A DNA stretch of 64,000 nt, taken from Caldinitratiruptor microaerophilus (GTDB taxonomy: Bacteria; Bacillota; Sulfobacillia; Symbiobacteriales; ZC4RG38). The notes beneath the pieces are model-generated. The model searched no databases. It saw only the letters and a list, made by a program, of their open reading frames with translations, and had not been told where the DNA came from. The position numbers and the translations under genes were made by a program. This document shows, in pieces, positions 13,600 to 49,048 of the stretch. The stretch is taken from positions 2,356,001 to 2,420,000 of the forward strand of contig NZ_AP025628.1 in the NCBI RefSeq assembly GCF_025999835.1. Direction: 5' to 3'. Numbering within the stretch: position 1 is the first letter of the stretch; each line of letters opens with the position of its first letter.

Positions 13600-14919
13600 A
13601 TGGGCTATCCCGGACCGACCTCCCGCTCCGCCGAGCTGTACGAGCGGGCGCTGCGGCGCATCGTCGGGGCCGTCAACAGCCCGGCCCGGTCGTACGCAGC
13701 CGTGGGGCTGCCCTACCCGGTCTTCATCGCCCGGGGGCAGGGGGCGTACCTGTGGGACGTCGACGGGAACCGGTACATCGACTACCTGGCGGCGTTCGCC
13801 CCGGGCATCCTGGGGCACGCGCACCCGGAGATCGTGGAGACCATCGCCCGGGCGGCCGCCGACGGAACGCTCTTCGGCACCCCGACCCCCTACGAGGTGG
13901 AACTCGCCGAGCGGCTCCAGGCGGCGATCCCCTCCCTGGAGCGGGTGCGCCTCGTGTCCACGGGCACGGAGGCCGTCATGTCGGCCGTCCGGGTGGCACG
14001 GGCCTTCACCGGCCGGCCCAAGGTGGTGAAGTTCGAGGGCTGCTACCACGGCCACTCCGACTTCGCCCTCATCCGGGCCGGGTCCGGCCCCGCGACGCTG
14101 GGGCAGCCGGACAGCGCCGGCATCCCGGAGAGCACGGCGGCCGAGGTCATCGTGGTGCCGTACAACGACGCGGCCGCGCTCGAGGCCGCCCTCGAGCGGT
14201 GGGGCGACCAGGTGGCGGCCGTGCTGATCGAGCCCATCGTGGGCAACATGGGCATCGTGCTCCCGGAGCCGGGCTACCTCCAGGCGGTGCGTGACCTGAC
14301 CCACCGCCACGGGGCGCTGCTCATCTTCGACGAGGTGATCACCGCCTTCCGGGTCACCTACGGCGGCGCCCAGAACGTGCTCGGCGTGGAGCCGGACCTG
14401 ACGACGCTGGGAAAGGCGATCGGGGGCGGGCTGCCCCTCGGCGCGTACGGGGGGCGGGCCGACGTGATGGACCGCGTGGCGCCGCTCGGGCCGGCCTACC
14501 AGGCCGGCACCCTCGCCGGCAACCCCCTGAGCGTCCGGGTCGCCCTCAAGGCACTCGACATCCTCGGCCGGCCCGGGGTCTACGAAGAGCTGGACCGCAA
14601 GGGGCGCTACCTGGCCGAGGGGGTCCTGGCCGCCGCGCGCCGCCACGGCTTCGCCGCCCAGGTGAACCGGATGGCCTCCGGCTTCACGCTCTTCTTCACC
14701 GACCGGCCGGTGCGCGACTACGCGTCGGCCTCCACGGCCAGCAAGGAGCTGTTCGCCCGCTTCTTCCGGGAGATGCTGGGCCGTGGCGTCCTCCTGGCCC
14801 CGTCCCGGTTCGAGGCCTGGTTCGTCCAGATCCCCCACTCGCAGGCCGACCTCGACGAGACCCTCGCCGCCGCGGACGCGGCGCTCGCGGCCATGGCCGC
14901 AGACGGCCTGGCCGGCTGA
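13600..14919 (+). CDS. hemL: Glutamate-1-semialdehyde 2,1-aminomutase
   Basis: A PLP enzyme converting glutamate-1-semialdehyde to 5-aminolevulinate in the C5 tetrapyrrole pathway; 439 residues. The PLP lysine is Lys272 in LGKAIGGGLP, and NSPARSY, CYHGHSD and FDEVITAFR are the usual signatures. ATG start preceded by GGAGGTGG at about seven bases. It stands alone on the plus strand and ends one base from the convergent oapA stop. No other heme gene is nearby. Confidence 0.96.
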   Translation: MGYPGPTSRSAELYERALRRIVGAVNSPARSYAAVGLPYPVFIARGQGAYLWDVDGNRYIDYLAAFAPGILGHAHPEIVETIARAAADGTLFGTPTPYEVELAERLQAAIPSLERVRLVSTGTEAVMSAVRVARAFTGRPKVVKFEGCYHGHSDFALIRAGSGPATLGQPDSAGIPESTAAEVIVVPYNDAAALEAALERWGDQVAAVLIEPIVGNMGIVLPEPGYLQAVRDLTHRHGALLIFDEVITAFRVTYGGAQNVLGVEPDLTTLGKAIGGGLPLGAYGGRADVMDRVAPLGPAYQAGTLAGNPLSVRVALKALDILGRPGVYEELDRKGRYLAEGVLAAARRHGFAAQVNRMASGFTLFFTDRPVRDYASASTASKELFARFFREMLGRGVLLAPSRFEAWFVQIPHSQADLDETLAAADAALAAMAADGLAG

Positions 14920-14920
14920 G

Positions 14921-15523
14921 CTAGCGCCGCGACCGGTTCCTGGGGACCACGGTCAGGCCCGTCGTCCGTTCGAACCAGTCCAGGAGCCGCCCGACGAACC
15001 ACACCACGTCCCCCGGCCGCCTGAGGGCGATTTCCTTGCCGAGTGCCTTGCCGCCGATGGTCAGACTGGCCACCAGCCCCACCGCCACGATGGTGGACAG
15101 CTCCTGCCAGGCGCCCGGGCCACGGTCGCCCCCGAGCCACAGCGCGACCTGTACGGCGATGGTCGCTGCCGCGGCCCCGCCGATGGTCCCGGCGATGTCG
15201 CCCACGATGTCGTTCGAGAAGTTGGCGACGGCCGCAGCGTTGCGGATGAGCCAGAGCGAGTGCCGGGTGCCCGGCAGCTTCTTGGCCGCCCGCGCGTGAA
15301 AAGGCGGCTCCTCCGCCGCCGTGACGGCCGTCCCCAGCATGTCGAACGCCACCCCGACTCCCACGATCAGGAGCAGCAGGGGAAGCGCCAGGGCCACGTG
15401 CAGGTCGCTCATCGCCTTCTGGGACAGCCACGAGATCCCTGCGGCCGTGAAGAACACCAGCACGGCCACCCGGAGCCCGCGCGACCAGGGGTCGCTCCGT
15501 CTGCCGCCGTTGCCCGAGGCCAA
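14921..15523 (-). CDS. oapA: Putative OLE-associated membrane protein OapA
   Basis: A 200-residue (about 21 kDa) membrane protein with hydrophobic segments near residues 17-33, 42-60, 113-131 and 141-157. The conserved-looking segment VANFSNDIVGDIAGTI lies in the middle. I assign it to the OapA family, small membrane proteins that bind the OLE RNA and are distantly related to DUF21/CorB-type transporters, on size, topology and the long structured gene-free region directly upstream on the same strand. Start is TTG at 15523 with a weak ribosome site. Without a search this stays an inference; the alternative is an uncharacterised membrane protein. Confidence 0.68.
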   Translation of the reverse strand: MASGNGGRRSDPWSRGLRVAVLVFFTAAGISWLSQKAMSDLHVALALPLLLLIVGVGVAFDMLGTAVTAAEEPPFHARAAKKLPGTRHSLWLIRNAAAVANFSNDIVGDIAGTIGGAAAATIAVQVALWLGGDRGPGAWQELSTIVAVGLVASLTIGGKALGKEIALRRPGDVVWFVGRLLDWFERTTGLTVVPRNRSRR

Positions 15524-15545
15524 CTCACACCACCCACAGCAGCTA

Positions 15546-16263
15546 CGGGGGAGGGCTTTGAGGAACCCTCCCCCGGGGCGGAATCAGGGTGGCAGTCCGA
15601 CCGGGTAAACTTTGCGGCTTGAGGTCCAGCAGGATTTCCCCGCAGGCCACCCGGCATCGCTGCCCGGGCGGTTTCCCTTTCAGGCCTGCGCCGCCCCGTC
15701 GCCGGCGGCGGGGCTGGATTGCCACTGAGACCGCACTGTAATCCCCGGCGGACCTCCGGAGCGGAACAGCCTAGGAGCTTTCCTCGACAGCGATCGCTTC
15801 TCCTAGCCTCTTTTGCAGGGCCGGTTTCAGGGTTACTCCAGCCCGGTAGCCGGCCGGCCGAGCCGCCACCGGGCAGGGCCCGGAGGCCCACCACCCATCC
15901 GCCCGTCCCCGCTCAAGGCAGGCTACACTGCACACAGCGCCACGCCATGCCGGGCACCGCATGCAGGTGTTCACTCCGCCGTAGCCTCGCTGCGCTCTCG
16001 GTGCAGCCGCCACGCACGGAGGCCTCCGCAGGGGCAGGGTCTACGCCCGCATGCCGTTGCGGATCGCCCTACCCCCTAAGTCCCCCAGCACCAACCCCCG
16101 ATTGGGCATCGGCAGCCAGCACCAGGGGCTTCATCGACTGTGCCCTTGACGGATTTTTAGGCCCGTCTTCAGAGAAGCGGTTGCTGACTAGGATACTGCG
16201 CCACCCCAAATCCCCTGCGCGACGTCCCCGTCACGCAAGTCGGAACGCTGTATCGCGCATCCG
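15546..16263 (-). ncRNA. ole: Putative OLE (ornate, large, extremophilic) RNA
   Basis: An 880-base stretch (15524-16403) has no credible gene but has a good minus-strand promoter (16270-16298) and many inverted repeats: CTAGGAG 15771-15777 with CTCCTAG 15800-15806; a nested structure with CGCAGGCC and GGCCTGCG as outer arms (about 15641-15690); and a perfect 9-bp hairpin GGGGGAGGG 15547-15555 / CCCTCCCCC 15566-15574 at its end. From the promoter to that hairpin is about 715 bases, near the usual 600-700 of OLE RNA, and it lies immediately upstream of an OapA-like gene, as OLE does. I did not verify the covariance model, so ends are approximate. Confidence 0.65.
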
Positions 16264-16269
16264 GGGCGT

Positions 16270-16298
16270 AGTTTAACACATGCTCACAGTTCCGGCAA
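16270..16298 (-). promoter_or_regulatory. Promoter of the OLE-like RNA/oapA transcript
   Basis: TTGCCG (16298-16293) and TAAACT (16275-16270) on the minus strand are 17 bases apart, with an extended -10 (TGT before TAAACT). The predicted start is near 16263, more than 700 bases before oapA, implying a long untranslated RNA. Confidence 0.7.
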
Positions 16299-16403
16299 AA
16301 GCCGCACCCGCCGGGCTATCTCCTTGCCGGCGCCGCCCGATCGGGAGAAGCCCTCCAGGTTGGCGGCACGCATCGAAGCAAGCCCACGCAGGCCCGCTCT
16401 CCC

Positions 16404-17264
16404 CTACACGCCCGGCGGCTGGGCCAGCCCCCGCGCGACCAGCCAGCGCCAGAGCGTCTCCATGACCTCCTCGTATCCGGGGTCGTTGAACACCTCGTGG
16501 TAACGGTCCTCGTAAAGGTGCCACTCCTTCGGCCCCCGGGCCGCCTCGTACACGGCCCGGGTCGCCTCAGGCCACACGAGGGTGTCGCTGCCGGCCACCA
16601 GGAAGAGCACGGGCACCTCCAGGGCTCCGGCCCGCTCCATCACCCGGGCCTGCTCCTGCTCACAGGATACGAACCAGCGCGCGGTGACCGACCGGGCCAC
16701 GAGGGGGTCTTCCCGGTACTGCCGGACCACCTCCGTGTCCCGGGAGATCCCTGCACCCTGGTCGGCGATCGGAAACCGGAACCGGGGCCACACCCCGCTC
16801 AGCACCCGGGCGACGGCCCGGCGGAAGGTGGAGATGGGCACGCGGGTCCTCAGCCACGGCGAGGACAGGACCAGGCCGGCAAGCCGCTGCGGCCGCGCCA
16901 GCGCGTAGCTGAGCGCGATCAGCCCGCCCATGCTGTGGCCCAGGAGGACGGGCGTCTGCCCAGCGTCGGCCTGGACCCGGTCGAGGAACCGGTCCAGGTC
17001 CTCGAGGTAGTCGTCGAAGCGGTCCACGTGCACCCGCGGGCCGTCGGACCGGCCGTGTCCCCGGTGGTCGAACGCCCAGACCGGCACGCCGCGACCGGCC
17101 AGGAAACTGCCCAGCCGCTCGTACCGGCCGGAGTGCTCCGCCAGACCGTGGGCGATGACGACAGGGGCCCCGCCGCCCTCCGGCTCGGGGCGCCAGCGGC
17201 GGAAGAAGAGCCGGATACCCCCCCGGCCCCCGAAAGACCCCTCATCCATCCGGGCAACCGGCAC
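16404..17264 (-). CDS. Alpha/beta hydrolase, monoglyceride lipase-like
   Basis: A 286-residue serine hydrolase of the lysophospholipase/monoacylglycerol lipase group. The nucleophile is Ser111 in LLGHSMGGL, the acid is Asp in VAGSDTLVWPE and the base is His in DRYHEVFNDPG; HGLAEHSGRY and FDHRGHGRSDG are typical of the group. I start at GTG 17264, seven bases after GGGGGG; GTG 17279 and ATG 17249 are alternatives. No signal peptide, so likely cytoplasmic. The natural substrate is unknown. Confidence 0.88.
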   Translation of the reverse strand: MPVARMDEGSFGGRGGIRLFFRRWRPEPEGGGAPVVIAHGLAEHSGRYERLGSFLAGRGVPVWAFDHRGHGRSDGPRVHVDRFDDYLEDLDRFLDRVQADAGQTPVLLGHSMGGLIALSYALARPQRLAGLVLSSPWLRTRVPISTFRRAVARVLSGVWPRFRFPIADQGAGISRDTEVVRQYREDPLVARSVTARWFVSCEQEQARVMERAGALEVPVLFLVAGSDTLVWPEATRAVYEAARGPKEWHLYEDRYHEVFNDPGYEEVMETLWRWLVARGLAQPPGV

Positions 17265-17355
17265 GGGTGATCCCCCCACCCACGCCTCCGTACGGCAATC
17301 TACGGCAGTCGCCGGCGGTTCTCCTGCGGGTCCCGGGACCGCTCCGCGTGACGAA

Positions 17356-17400: not shown

Positions 17401-17661
17401 TCAGAAGCGCCCGCCCCGACGGGGCTGAGCCTCGTTCACGGTAATGGGACGGCCGCCCAGGAGGGTGCCGTTCAGGGCCTGGATCGCGTTCTCCGCGTCG
17501 GCCTCGGCGACCTCCACGAAGCCGAAGCCGCGGGAGCGGCCGGTCTCCCGGTCGGTGATGATCCGGGCGGAGATCACCTGGGCATACTGGGAGAAGGCAG
17601 CCACCAAGTCGTCCTCGGTCGTGGCCCAGGGCAGGTTGCCGACATACAGGGTCTTGGTCAT
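17401..17661 (-). CDS. RRM-domain RNA-binding protein
   Basis: An 86-residue single-RRM protein of the bacterial/cyanobacterial Rbp type. RNP2 is LYVGNL (5-10) and RNP1 is RGFGFVEV (44-51), with a short basic Gly/Arg tail (RRGGRF). It presumably binds single-stranded RNA, perhaps as a chaperone under stress. ATG start behind GAGGAGGA. Its leader holds a 10-bp inverted repeat. It is bordered by a strong hairpin downstream, so it is probably transcribed alone. Confidence 0.93.
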   Translation of the reverse strand: MTKTLYVGNLPWATTEDDLVAAFSQYAQVISARIITDRETGRSRGFGFVEVAEADAENAIQALNGTLLGGRPITVNEAQPRRGGRF

Positions 17662-17722
17662 CGCGGGTCTGTCCTCCTCAGACGTGTGGATTGGCCCCGG
17701 GGCCCGATCGGGACATATACGA

Positions 17723-17755
17723 AACGGCACCCAGGGTCCGAGCCCGGGTGCCGTT
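17723..17755 (-). repeat. Hairpin in the RRM gene leader
   Basis: AACGGCACCC (17723-17732) and GGGTGCCGTT (17746-17755) pair perfectly, and GGG/CCC inside extends the stem past a one-base bulge. It lies about 60 bases before the RRM start codon. It could be an attenuator or autoregulatory target. The rest of the gene-free stretch 17662-18020 contains only the ribosome site of the next gene and no clear promoter. Confidence 0.5.
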
Positions 17756-41890: not shown

Positions 41891-42658
41891 TCTTCGCTTC
41901 CCCCGCCGCCGCGCCAGCTCGGCGGCGATCTCGTCCAGGGAGATGCCCGCCTGCTCCAGCACGACCAGCGTGTGGAACCACAGGTCGGCGACCTCCCAGA
42001 CCAGGCCCGCCCGATCCGCGCCCTTGGCCGCCAGGAGCACCTCGCCGGCCTCCTCGGCCACCTTCTTCAGCGCGGCGTCCGGCGCCCTGGCAAAGAGGCG
42101 CGAGGTGTACGAGCCGGGATCGGGGTGCCGGCGGCGGTCGGCGAGCACCGCCGCCAGCTCGGACAGCACGTCGCCGAGGCGGGCGGCGGAGGCTGGCGCA
42201 CCCGGCCACCAGGAGGGCACGTGGACGGCCTCCGGGGCATCCGCGTGGTCGCCGGAGCCGGCCGGGGCCGCGGCCGGACCGTCCGCCAGCCGGGGCCACT
42301 CTGCCCGGCGGTGCATGAAGCAGGAGTACGTGCCGAGGTGGCAGGCCACCCCTTCCTGCTCGACGAGCACGAGGAGCGTGTCGCCATCGCAGTCGGTGCG
42401 GATCTCCCGGACGTGCTGGACGTGCCCGGACGTCTCCCCCTTGTGCCACAGGGCCTGGCGCGACCGGCTCCAGAACCAGGTCTGGCCGGTCTCCAGCGTC
42501 CGGCGCAGGGCTTCCCGGTTCATGTAGGCGAGCATGAGCACCTGCCCCGTGCGGGCATCCTGCACCACGGCCGGCAGGAGGCCGTCCGGGCCCCAGCGCA
42601 GGTCCTCCTCCCGCAGGCTCGCGGCGGTGCCCGCCGCGGTGTTGGCAGCGCGGTTCAC
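41879..42658 (-). CDS. hisIE: Bifunctional phosphoribosyl-AMP cyclohydrolase / phosphoribosyl-ATP pyrophosphatase
   Basis: A 259-residue fusion. The HisI domain (about 18-125) has the zinc/magnesium residues Cys90, Asp91 and Asp93 (TDCDGD), Cys106 and Cys113 (ACHLGTYSC). The HisE domain (about 165-250) has [14 protein letters not shown] and [13 protein letters not shown]. The linker of about 40 residues is Ala/Pro-rich. GTG start overlaps the hisF stop by four bases. Stop and last residues come from the heptanucleotide repeat, so the natural C-terminus may have been altered slightly. Confidence 0.95.
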
Positions 42659-43416
42659 GGCCGTACCGGCACCCCCCGGGCGGCCAGGTACGCCTTGGCG
42701 TCGGCCACGGTGTACTGGCCGGAGTGGAAGATCGAGGCGGCGAGGGCGGCGTCGGCCCGGCCCGCGGTCAGCACCTCGGCGAGGTGCTCGAGGCTGCCGG
42801 CCCCCCCGGAGGCGATGACGGGGATGCCGACCACCTCGGCCAGCCGGCGGTGGAGCTCGAGGTCGAAGCCCTCCCGGGTGCCGTCGGCGTCCATGCTGGT
42901 CACGAGGAGCTCGCCGGCGCCCCGCCGGGCCGCCTCTTCCGCCCAGGACAGGGCGTCGATCCCCGTCGGCGTTCGCCCGCCGTGGAGGTACACCTCCCAG
43001 CCCCCGGGCCGCCGGCGGCAGTCGATGGCGACGACGACGCACTGGCTCCCGAAGGCGGCCGCGCCCCGCTCGATGAGGGTCGGATCCTTCACGGCCGCCG
43101 TGTTGATGCTGACCTTGTCCGCCCCCGCCAGGAGGGCGGCGCGCATGTCCTCCACGGACGTGATCCCGCCACCCACCGTGAGGGGAATGAACACCTGCTC
43201 GGCGGCCCGGGCGATGACGTCGAGGAGCGTGCGGCGACCCTCGGCGGAGGCGGAGATGTCGAGGAAGACGACCTCGTCCGCCCCCTGGGCGTCGTAGCGG
43301 GCGGCGAGCTCCACCGGGTCGCCGGCGTCCCAGCGGCCCGTGTGGAACTTCACGTTCTTGACGACGCGCCCGTGGTCGATGTCGAGGCACGGGATGATGC
43401 GCTTGGCGAGCGGCAT
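42655..43416 (-). CDS. hisF: Imidazole glycerol phosphate synthase, cyclase subunit
   Basis: A 253-residue (beta/alpha)8 barrel that joins PRFAR with ammonia from HisH to give imidazole glycerol phosphate and [21 protein letters not shown] contains the catalytic Asp11, and [18 protein letters not shown] contains the second catalytic Asp. It begins directly after the hisH-hisA stop. It is a free protein here, while its usual partner HisH is attached to HisA. Confidence 0.96.
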
Positions 43417-44793
43417 TCAGGTCACCGCCTCCAGGGCTTCCGCCAGGTCGAGGGCCCCTGTGTACAGGGCCTTGCCCACGATGGCCCCCGACACGCCGGG
43501 GATCTCGCGCAGCCGGCGCAGGTCGGCTGCCGACGCAATCCCTCCCGACGCCACCACCAGGAGCCCGGTCGCGGCGAGCTCCCGGACCCCCTCCAGCGAC
43601 GGGCCCTCGAGCATCCCGTCGCGGCGGATGTCCGTGTAGACGGCGTGCCGCACGCCGGCCCGGCGCAGCGACCGGGCCAGCTCGACGGCCGACACCCCGG
43701 CGGCGCGGGTCCAGCCGGCCACCGCCACCATCCCGTCCCGGGCGTCGATGCCCGCGACGACGCGCTCCGGGCCGAACCGGGCCACCGCCTCCCGGACGAG
43801 GTCCGGGTCGAGAGCGGCCGAGCCCAGGACGATGCGGTCGGCGCCCATCTCGATGGCGGCCGCCATGTCGGCCAGCGTGCGCAGGCCGCCGCCGAGCTGG
43901 ACCGCCGCCCCGGCGCGGCGCGCGGCCTCGACGATGGCCCGCACGGCGGGGGCGTTCACCGGACGGCCGGCAGCCGCGCCGTCCAGGTCGACCACGTGCA
44001 GGGCCCGGGCCCCCGCCGCCAGCCAGCGCGCGGCGGCCGCGGCCGGGTCGCCGTAGTCGGTGGCGGTGGCGAAGTCGCCCTGGCGCAGGCGCACGGCCCG
44101 GCCGCCCTTGAGGTCGATCGCCGGGAAGACCGTGAACCCCCGCCAGGCGGCCACGAGCCGCAGCCAGTTGGCGTAGATGCGGATCCCGGCCGCCGAGGAC
44201 TTCTCCGGGTGGAACTGCGCCCCCATCACGTTGCCGCGGGCGACCATGCTGGGGAAGACCCGCCCGTACTCGGTGAGGGCCAGCGCGTCGGCGGGATCGG
44301 CGGCCTCGGCCGCGTAGGAGTGGACGAAGTACCCCCAGAGGCCCTTCTCCAGGCCTTCCAGGAGCGGGTGGGGGTACTGCGGCGTCACCTCGTTCCAGCC
44401 GATGTGCGGGAGCTTCACCCCCCCGGGCAACCGGGTGACCCGGCCGGGGACCAGGCCCAGGCCCGGGGTCCGCTCCCACTCCTTGGACTCCTCGAACAGG
44501 AGCTGCTGGCCGAGGCAGATCCCGAGCACCGGCCGCCCCGCCCGGGCGGCGGCCTGCACGGCCCCGCCGAGGCCGGTGCGCCCCAGCGTCGCCATCGCCG
44601 CCGGGAAGGCGCCCACGCCGGGGAGGATGACGGCGTCGGCGGCGGCCACGTCCTCGGGCCGGTCGGTGATGACCGCATCCCAGACGGCGCCCGCCGGGCC
44701 CGCCTTCACGTCCCGGGCGGCCCGCAGCACGGCCTTGCGCACGTTGGGCAGGTTCCCCATGCCGTAGTCGACGATGGCGATCCGCCGCATCAC
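43417..44793 (-). CDS. hisHA: HisH-HisA fusion: IGP synthase glutaminase + ProFAR isomerase
   Basis: One uninterrupted 458-codon frame encoding two enzymes. Residues 1-213 are HisH, a class I glutamine amidotransferase with Cys93 (GICLGQQLL), His195 and Glu197 (QFHPEKSS). Residues about 220-458 are HisA, with catalytic Asp227 (FPAIDLKGG) and Asp350 (AGIDARDG). Only about six residues (AAWRGF) separate them. No stop codon lies between; an internal GTG (codon 214, at 44154) has no ribosome site. HisH normally pairs with HisF. A base error that removed a stop, or internal initiation, are the alternatives. Confidence 0.88.
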
Positions 44794-47375: not shown

Positions 47376-48716
47376 TCAGTGGATCGGCGTGACGCCGCCG
47401 CCCGGCCGCGGCGCCCCGCGCCGGTCCCGGTCCCCCGGTGCGGCACCGGGGCGGCCCGGGCGCGACGGTCCCGCCGCAGCCGACCCCCCCGGACCGGACG
47501 CCGGGCCGGCGGCACCCGCGGCTTCGACGCGCACGACCTCCGCGACCCCGCGCGCCCGGACGTAGGCCTCGAGCGCCTCGCCTTCCAGCCCGTCGAGCTC
47601 CACTTCCACGACCCGGCCCGCGGCCCGCAGCTCCCTCGCCCGGGCGTGGGCGAGCGCCTCGGCCCCCGGCGCCGGCACCAGCAGGATCGGGGCCTCATCC
47701 TCCGGCTCCGGCCCGCCCTGCCGCTCCAGGGCCTGCAGCACCCGGTCGAGGTCGAGGGCGAAGCCCGTCGCCGGGGTCCCGGCGCCGTCGCCGGCGAAGG
47801 CGGCCAGCAGCCGGTCGTAGCGGCCGCCGCCGAGGACGGGCGCGCCCACGCCGGGTGCGTAGGCTTCGAAGACGATTCCCGTGTAGTAGCCGAAGTGCCG
47901 GGCCAGCCCGAGGTCCAGGCAGACCTGCGCCTCCACCCCGTAGCCGGCGAGGAGCCGGAGCGTCCCGTCGATCTCCTCCAGGGCCGCCCGGACGGGATCC
48001 CCGGGCTCGCCGCCGAACCGGCCCAGCGCCTCCCGGGCGCTGCCCGTGAACGACGCCATGTCGACCAAGAGGTCGGCCCCCGCCGGGGCGGCTTCCCGGG
48101 CCAGCCGCTCGAAGGCGACCAGGTCACGGGCCGCCAGCGCCTCCTTCAGGTCGGCCGCGGCCGACCCGGGGACGCCGGCCCGGGCCAGGAGCCCCTCCAC
48201 GACGGCCACGTGCCCGACGCCGACCTTGTATCCCTGCAGGCCGGCGCGGGCCAGCGCGTCGCAGGCCAGGGCGATGATCTCGGCGTCCGCGCGCATCCCG
48301 CGCGCCCCGATGAGCTCCACGCCCGCCTGCCACACCTCGTGGAGTTCCCCGTAACGGTGACCCCGACGGCGGAACACCGGCCCCCGGTAGCTGTAGCGCA
48401 GGGGCAGGGGCTCGACCGCGGCCCGGCTGGCGGCGAGCCGCGCGATGGGGGCCGTCATGTCGGGGCGCAGCACCAGCGTCCGGCCGCGGCGGTCGAACAG
48501 CTGGTAGTAGTCCTCCCGGCGGGCTCGCGCCTCCTGGCCGGCCAGCGCCGTCTCGAGAAACTCGAAGGCCGGGGTCATCACCTCCCGGTAGCCCCAGAGC
48601 CGGAAGACCTCCAGGAGGCGGTCCTCCAGGCGCCGGAGCCGGGCGGTCTCCCGCGGCAGGCGGTCCTTGACTCCGTCCGGCACCGGGAAGCCCCCGGTGA
48701 GCGTTTCCGGCAGCAC
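47376..48716 (-). CDS. hisZ: ATP phosphoribosyltransferase regulatory subunit
   Basis: A 446-residue histidyl-tRNA-synthetase-like protein. The class II core shows motif 2 (RYSYRGPVFRRRG) and GGGRYDRLLAAF; lack of the tRNA-binding features and the adjacent short hisG make HisZ the better call than HisS. The last 45 residues are a Gly/Pro/Ala-rich tail. GTG at 48716 follows GGAAGGAGG by eight bases; longer forms would run into the T-box leader. Confidence 0.93.
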   Translation of the reverse strand: MLPETLTGGFPVPDGVKDRLPRETARLRRLEDRLLEVFRLWGYREVMTPAFEFLETALAGQEARARREDYYQLFDRRGRTLVLRPDMTAPIARLAASRAAVEPLPLRYSYRGPVFRRRGHRYGELHEVWQAGVELIGARGMRADAEIIALACDALARAGLQGYKVGVGHVAVVEGLLARAGVPGSAAADLKEALAARDLVAFERLAREAAPAGADLLVDMASFTGSAREALGRFGGEPGDPVRAALEEIDGTLRLLAGYGVEAQVCLDLGLARHFGYYTGIVFEAYAPGVGAPVLGGGRYDRLLAAFAGDGAGTPATGFALDLDRVLQALERQGGPEPEDEAPILLVPAPGAEALAHARARELRAAGRVVEVELDGLEGEALEAYVRARGVAEVVRVEAAGAAGPASGPGGSAAAGPSRPGRPGAAPGDRDRRGAPRPGGGVTPIH

Positions 48717-49048
48717 GGCCGCAGCCTCCTTCCGAATGGCTCCCAACGTAAGAAGGCACCTCGCCCCGGTGTGGGACGAGATGCCTTTTCTCGCGGTACC
48801 ACCCACATTGGTGCGCACCCGGAAGCACGCACCCACTCGGCAGGGCACGGGCCACAGGGCCGATGCCCTCCCCCTCCGCTAACGGCGGGGGTCTCCGTCC
48901 GCACCTACTCGGCACGCTGCCTTTCGAACGGCGGCTCCAGGGTGTGTTCGCCGGACCCGTCCCGCCGCCTCGCACCGGCCGGCGGCTCTCTGGAGGGCGT
49001 GGCCCGGTTACTCTTCCCCTTCATGGCCTTTGCGAACCCGATTCAGTT
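48717..49048 (-). promoter_or_regulatory. T-box riboswitch (histidine) of the his operon
   Basis: The antiterminator core TGGGTGGTACCGCG lies at 48805-48792 on the minus strand. It is followed by a terminator hairpin AAGGCATCTCG / CGAGGTGCCTT (48787-48777 with 48763-48753). In the Stem I region GAACACA (48949-48943) gives CAC, a histidine codon, as specifier (48946-48944). Uncharged tRNA-His should therefore favour read-through into hisZ. The leader is about 330 bases and accounts for the gene-free stretch before the operon. Confidence 0.9.

Follow-up and report, generated by a model that had tools for sequence, protein, structure and literature searches.

A full-length OLE RNA and its partner gene oapA lie together outside their usual operon in Caldinitratiruptor microaerophilus

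What occupies 880 bases between two genes read from the same strand when no protein is encoded there? We addressed this question in a 64,000-nucleotide stretch of the Caldinitratiruptor microaerophilus genome (the window), in which the interval from 15524 to 16403 contained no credible protein gene, just short overlapping open reading frames (ORFs), and in which a simple coding-score caller called no gene between 15523 and 16404. A sequence-only reading had described this interval as gene-free and as holding several inverted repeats, and had interpreted it as a probable OLE RNA accompanied by its membrane partner OapA. These points held up: the inverted repeats exceeded chance (folding z = −3.7 relative to shuffled sequence), the Rfam family for OLE RNA (RF01071) matched the interval, and the adjoining protein had the traits of OapA. 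OLE RNA is a large bacterial RNA located at the cell membrane; few bacterial RNAs to which, to our knowledge, no biochemical role has been assigned are as large or as well conserved. Beyond what had been proposed, we found a strong hairpin at 15575–15546, homologues of partner proteins, no MpfA, and an apparent relocation of the ole-oapA pair.

The whole window was compared with all 4227 Rfam families. Positions 16220–15573 of the minus strand (648 nt of model match) aligned with RF01071 over its entire length (model 1–616 of 616) with a score of 431 bits, relative to a gathering cut-off of 50 (E = 3.2e-123); this covariance-model search had been named as the check on the OLE proposal, which passed it. 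No second copy of the RNA turned up in the genome, a single contig of 3.6 Mb. Its score lies within the range reported for full-length OLE RNAs (at least 390 with the model used by PMC11332333), and its architecture is that of the full-length type rather than of variant 1 or 2, as the P7–P8 and P13 arms are present at RNA positions 199–248, 255–293 and 552–572 with no truncation. When the model structure was projected on the sequence, 146 of 158 pairs were canonical and 12 were not, cf. approximately 40% canonical pairs expected from composition alone. Covariation was examined in an alignment of 22 OLE RNAs from relatives, in which 85.1% of cells were paired as the structure requires, compared to 41–47% with the partners slid by 1–3 columns. 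Since structures taken from a model of these RNAs tend to outperform their own slid copies, more weight attaches to the compensatory changes than to this percentage: 99 of the 158 pairs changed on both sides among the 22 sequences. None of 500 shuffles came out as high.

The closing helix and the dimer-contact loops were also identified. The closing helix P1, which is left unpaired in the Rfam structure, is formed by GGGUGGC (16200–16206, −) and GCCACCC (15587–15593, −), and 20 of the 22 sequences keep all 7 of its pairs canonical, compensatory changes included. Cryo-EM studies have reported loops that join two OLE RNAs (PMC12286853, PMC12265935), and all of these dimer-contact loops were found here, with helix names (P4, P5.1, P6.1, P9) given by analogy. 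A stem at 16148–16167 (−) carries the A-rich loop CCUAAAAA and is a candidate for the P4 contact by analogy with the dimer in PMC12265935. The P5.1/P6.1 kissing partners described in the same study correspond, in the projected structure, to a long stem at 16082–16128 (−) with the loop UGCCCA, of which GCCCA was kept in 22/22 relatives, and to a stem at 16047–16062 (−) whose loop, ACGGCA, is complementary to the UGCC of the former. The P9 arm (15806–15919, −) ends in the palindromic apical loop CGGCCG, the P9 kissing loop of PMC12265935. The model match also spans the regions where the kink-turn (the OapC site) and P12.2–P13 (the OapB site) would lie, coverage that applies at the level of the model. 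Compared to full-length members of RF01071, the window RNA is thus the same in model coverage, loops, closing helix, single copy and place before oapA, and the class of its host genome commonly carries OLE RNA (in 100 of the 151 genomes sampled); it differs in its high GC content (68%), in having a predicted promoter of its own and a predicted hairpin between RNA and oapA, and in its location.

The protein encoded directly after the RNA (14921–15523, −; 200 aa, TTG start, 21.0 kDa) fits OapA in size, DxxxD motif, membrane regions, fold and orthology, which supports the identification made from sequence. It has four hydrophobic, predicted membrane-spanning regions and the DxxxD motif (DIVGD) at residues 105–109. 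Its sole Pfam match was CNNM, at 20.7 bits relative to a cut-off of 28.4, and OapA has been described as the next closest match to the CNNM model after MpfA (PMC11332333). With the window protein as the basis of a profile, 44 homologous ORFs were retrieved (some loci counted twice), nearly all adjoining OLE RNAs and all 44 with DxxxD. Invariant columns among 35 aligned OapA sequences included D61, D105, G108, D109, K159, A160 and K163. An AlphaFold2 model was helical (pLDDT 88.7), and the best six matches in a Foldseek search of the PDB were all CNNM/CorB/CorC structures, with weak E-values (0.0055 at best); the same kind of fold match, to CorB 7M1U, was reported for OapA of Halalkalibacterium halodurans (PMC11332333). 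A sequence search of solved structures with the window protein gave no match, nor did an NCBIfam scan of the window match an OapA model. The protein therefore shares with OapA of H. halodurans and relatives a mass of ~21 kDa, four predicted membrane regions, DxxxD, a CNNM-like fold and a gene directly after ole; it differs in its TTG start and in its sequence, being 52–53% identical to OapA of two same-family genomes and 35–46% identical to others, and its binding to OLE RNA is a prediction. One copy was found in the genome.

Three OapA-like loci with no OLE RNA nearby (L003, L004 and L005) were considered as cases of OapA without the RNA, a reading that was dropped, as OLE RNA is present elsewhere in all three genomes. 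In Paradesulfitobacterium ferrireducens (L003/L060) and in the MAG SKS3.bin19 (L004/L059) ole and oapA lie on separate contigs, the MAG matching OLE RNA twice and oapA once. Caenibacillus caldisaponilyticus encodes an OLE-linked OapA (L057) and, standing alone, a further OapA-like protein (191 aa, with DxxxD; L005:5833–6408), so that OapA paralogues also occur away from the RNA.

CNNM searches normally give MpfA proteins high scores. A genome-wide CNNM search returned no CNNM/MpfA protein here, cf. 12 of 14 control genomes in which one was found; as the same search missed OapA itself and would let very divergent CNNM proteins escape, this result means that the genome has no ordinary MpfA, not that every CNNM-like protein is absent. 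It agrees with the published anticorrelation between MpfA and OLE RNA (PMC11332333). The other known partners of OLE RNA are OapB (KOW domain) and OapC (YbxF) (PMC9723947, PMC11332333), to which bS21 has been added (PMC12265935), and homologues of all three were present: a KOW-type protein encoded beside infA that matched PDB 7k9b ('OLE-associated protein B') at 9e-11, a 92-residue protein encoded just upstream of rpsL that matched YbxF structures at 4e-17, and bS21. A small RRM-domain RNA-binding protein is encoded two genes upstream of the OLE RNA (17401–17730, −); it is 89% identical in same-family relatives and its gene is kept in the OLE neighbourhood among relatives; it is a possible further partner.

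The signals flanking the RNA were also examined. A minus-strand promoter that had been called good, TTGCCG-17-TAAACT at 16298–16270, is indeed present, with a TG before the −10 hexamer (TGTTAAACT) and a predicted start near 16263; the OLE model starts at 16220, 49 bases past the −10 hexamer. On a weighted scale the site scored 12.4 bits, a value reached by 4 of 300 stretches drawn at random from the sequence, and no site passed a strict 9-of-12 consensus filter; the promoter is thus plausible, only modestly above chance, and suggestive rather than proof. In same-family relatives TTGTGC-17-TACACT stands about as far from the RNA and is weak too (15/300 and 22/300), the sister family has TTGACC-18-TAT[CG]AT, and most of the aligned OLE RNAs had promoter-like sites in the ~70 bases before them, several of these sites being no better than that of the window. 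At the other end, the RNA had been placed as ending about 25 bases before the protein; the distance from the last position of the OLE model (15573) to the OapA start (15523) is 49 bases. Between the two lies a GC-rich hairpin, CGGGGGAGGG-loop-CCCTCCCCCG (15546–15575, −), with a folding energy of −28.4 kcal/mol over 45 nt (z = −5.3). Relatives have hairpins at the equivalent position, and in two Symbiobacterium-like genomes a U-tract comes after the hairpin. We infer that this hairpin may be a 3′-end or attenuation element, and that the OLE transcript would be free-standing with partial read-through into oapA.

The place of the pair in the genome was unusual. Longer loci outside the window's family had the order ispA-OLE-oapA-dxs, mostly with xseA and xseB (often also folD) upstream, which is the usual folD-xseA-xseB-ispA-ole-oapA-dxs cluster. 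Linkage was examined in 30 loci of the class with flanks of up to 1.5 kb, and ispA and/or dxs adjoined OLE or oapA in 28 of them; the 2 exceptions were same-family relatives of the window. In all three genomes of this family, OLE-oapA lies in the same order between an alpha/beta-hydrolase gene (serine aminopeptidase S33 type, Pfam Hydrolase_4; 16404–17279, −, in the window) and the convergent hemL (13600–14919, +; NCBIfam hemL models above cut-off), which marks the new site, while ispA and dxs are adjacent with no OLE RNA between them (gap of 4 bases in the window's genome and ~80 in the others). The pair is thus now outside the isoprenoid/DNA-repair operon. As ispA and dxs abut without OLE and the family shares the hydrolase/hemL site, a single transfer is the simplest reading, in which ole and oapA apparently left the ispA-dxs junction together, once, in the family ancestor. 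Five other class loci (L009, L012, L015, L022 and L027) had OLE between ispA and dxs with oapA elsewhere in the genome. Joint relocation of ole and oapA is new relative to the literature as far as this could be surveyed, and the literature searched yielded nothing on OLE RNA together with Symbiobacterium; the RNA itself may well be included in the GTDB-based catalogue of PMC11332333.

Overall, the computations establish the identity of the RNA, its single copy, its conserved fold and dimer-contact loops, and the signature and fold of OapA, and they place homologues of OapB, OapC and bS21 in the same genome. We assign a probability of about 96% to the reading that the locus encodes OLE RNA in full length together with OapA, its obligate membrane partner. 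By analogy with other species, the RNA would be made from its own promoter near 16263, would fold into two domains and would dimerise via the A-rich, UGCC/GGCA and GGCC loops, with an OapA dimer holding it at the membrane, OapC on the kink-turn and OapB on the P12–P13 arm. Whether the particle would tune Mg2+ homeostasis and stress tolerance and replace a CNNM/MpfA Mg2+ exporter is a part of this scheme to which we give even odds. The pair of this family would have shifted as a unit, apparently, from the ispA-dxs junction to the site beside hemL.

Other interpretations of the same data were weighed. The ole sequence could be a decayed relic rather than a working OLE RNA, given that its score falls slightly under those of the order's other sampled OLE RNAs (437–466 bits) and that 12 model pairs are non-canonical. 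However, the match is full-length with conserved loops and closing helix intact, oapA is intact and conserved, two other family genomes share the layout, no MpfA was found that might take over, and the apparently defective OLE genes on record come from organisms without OapA (PMC11332333), which together make decay very improbable. The position of the structured region directly upstream of oapA, in the same orientation and followed by a hairpin that could attenuate transcription, would suit a long regulatory 5′ leader rather than a free-standing RNA. Conservation of the RNA without a downstream oapA in the five split loci among the 30 of the class argues strongly against a mere leader function, and in H. 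halodurans OLE is an abundant RNA with a processed 3′ end (PMC11332333, PMC12265935); we find this interpretation scarcely credible.

An MpfA/CNNM-type Mg2+ transporter whose adjacency to OLE is incidental would explain why CNNM was the only Pfam match and why the fold search returned CNNM structures, and the membrane domain does show weak sequence and fold similarity to MpfA, CorB and CorC. Proteins of that type are recognised by a CNNM domain above cut-off followed by a CBS pair and an HlyC/CorC domain, whereas the window protein gave a sub-threshold CNNM match and, at 200 aa in all, has neither CBS nor HlyC/CorC domains. It also has four hydrophobic segments rather than three, contains the DxxxD motif that CNNM domains lack (PMC11332333), and is tied to the RNA, its orthologues adjoining OLE RNA in most related genomes, so that a transporter of this kind is extremely unlikely.

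A genuine, ordinary member of the OLE family, paired with OapA, thus accounts for the locus, the one unusual trait being the joint move of RNA and partner; the molecule is already known, widespread and studied, and it is its position in the genome that is out of the ordinary. While the kind of molecule is not new, the instance does contribute a genome that has homologues of the complete set of OLE partners and in which no MpfA-type transporter was found, and a clear case in which ole and oapA left the usual operon together, both of which help to separate what the RNA needs (OapA) from mere travelling companions (ispA, dxs, xseAB). Taken with the genomes in which ole stayed and oapA left, the move of the intact pair, with a predicted promoter of its own and a hairpin ahead of oapA, might tentatively be read as a sign that OLE function does not need the cluster and that selection acts only on the RNA-OapA partnership, a view we hold to be somewhat less probable than its opposite; if true, this lineage offers a natural experiment on the importance of each classical neighbour.

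Elsewhere in the window, a 458-residue ORF (43417–44793, −) combined HisH (residues 5–212) with a HisA-type isomerase (222–452), an apparent HisH-HisA fusion unless a sequencing frameshift has joined the two, and a separate hisF followed downstream at 42655–43416. A T-box leader (48769–49033, −; 98.7 bits), presumably histidine-responsive, was located directly upstream of hisZ (47376–48848) and his genes.
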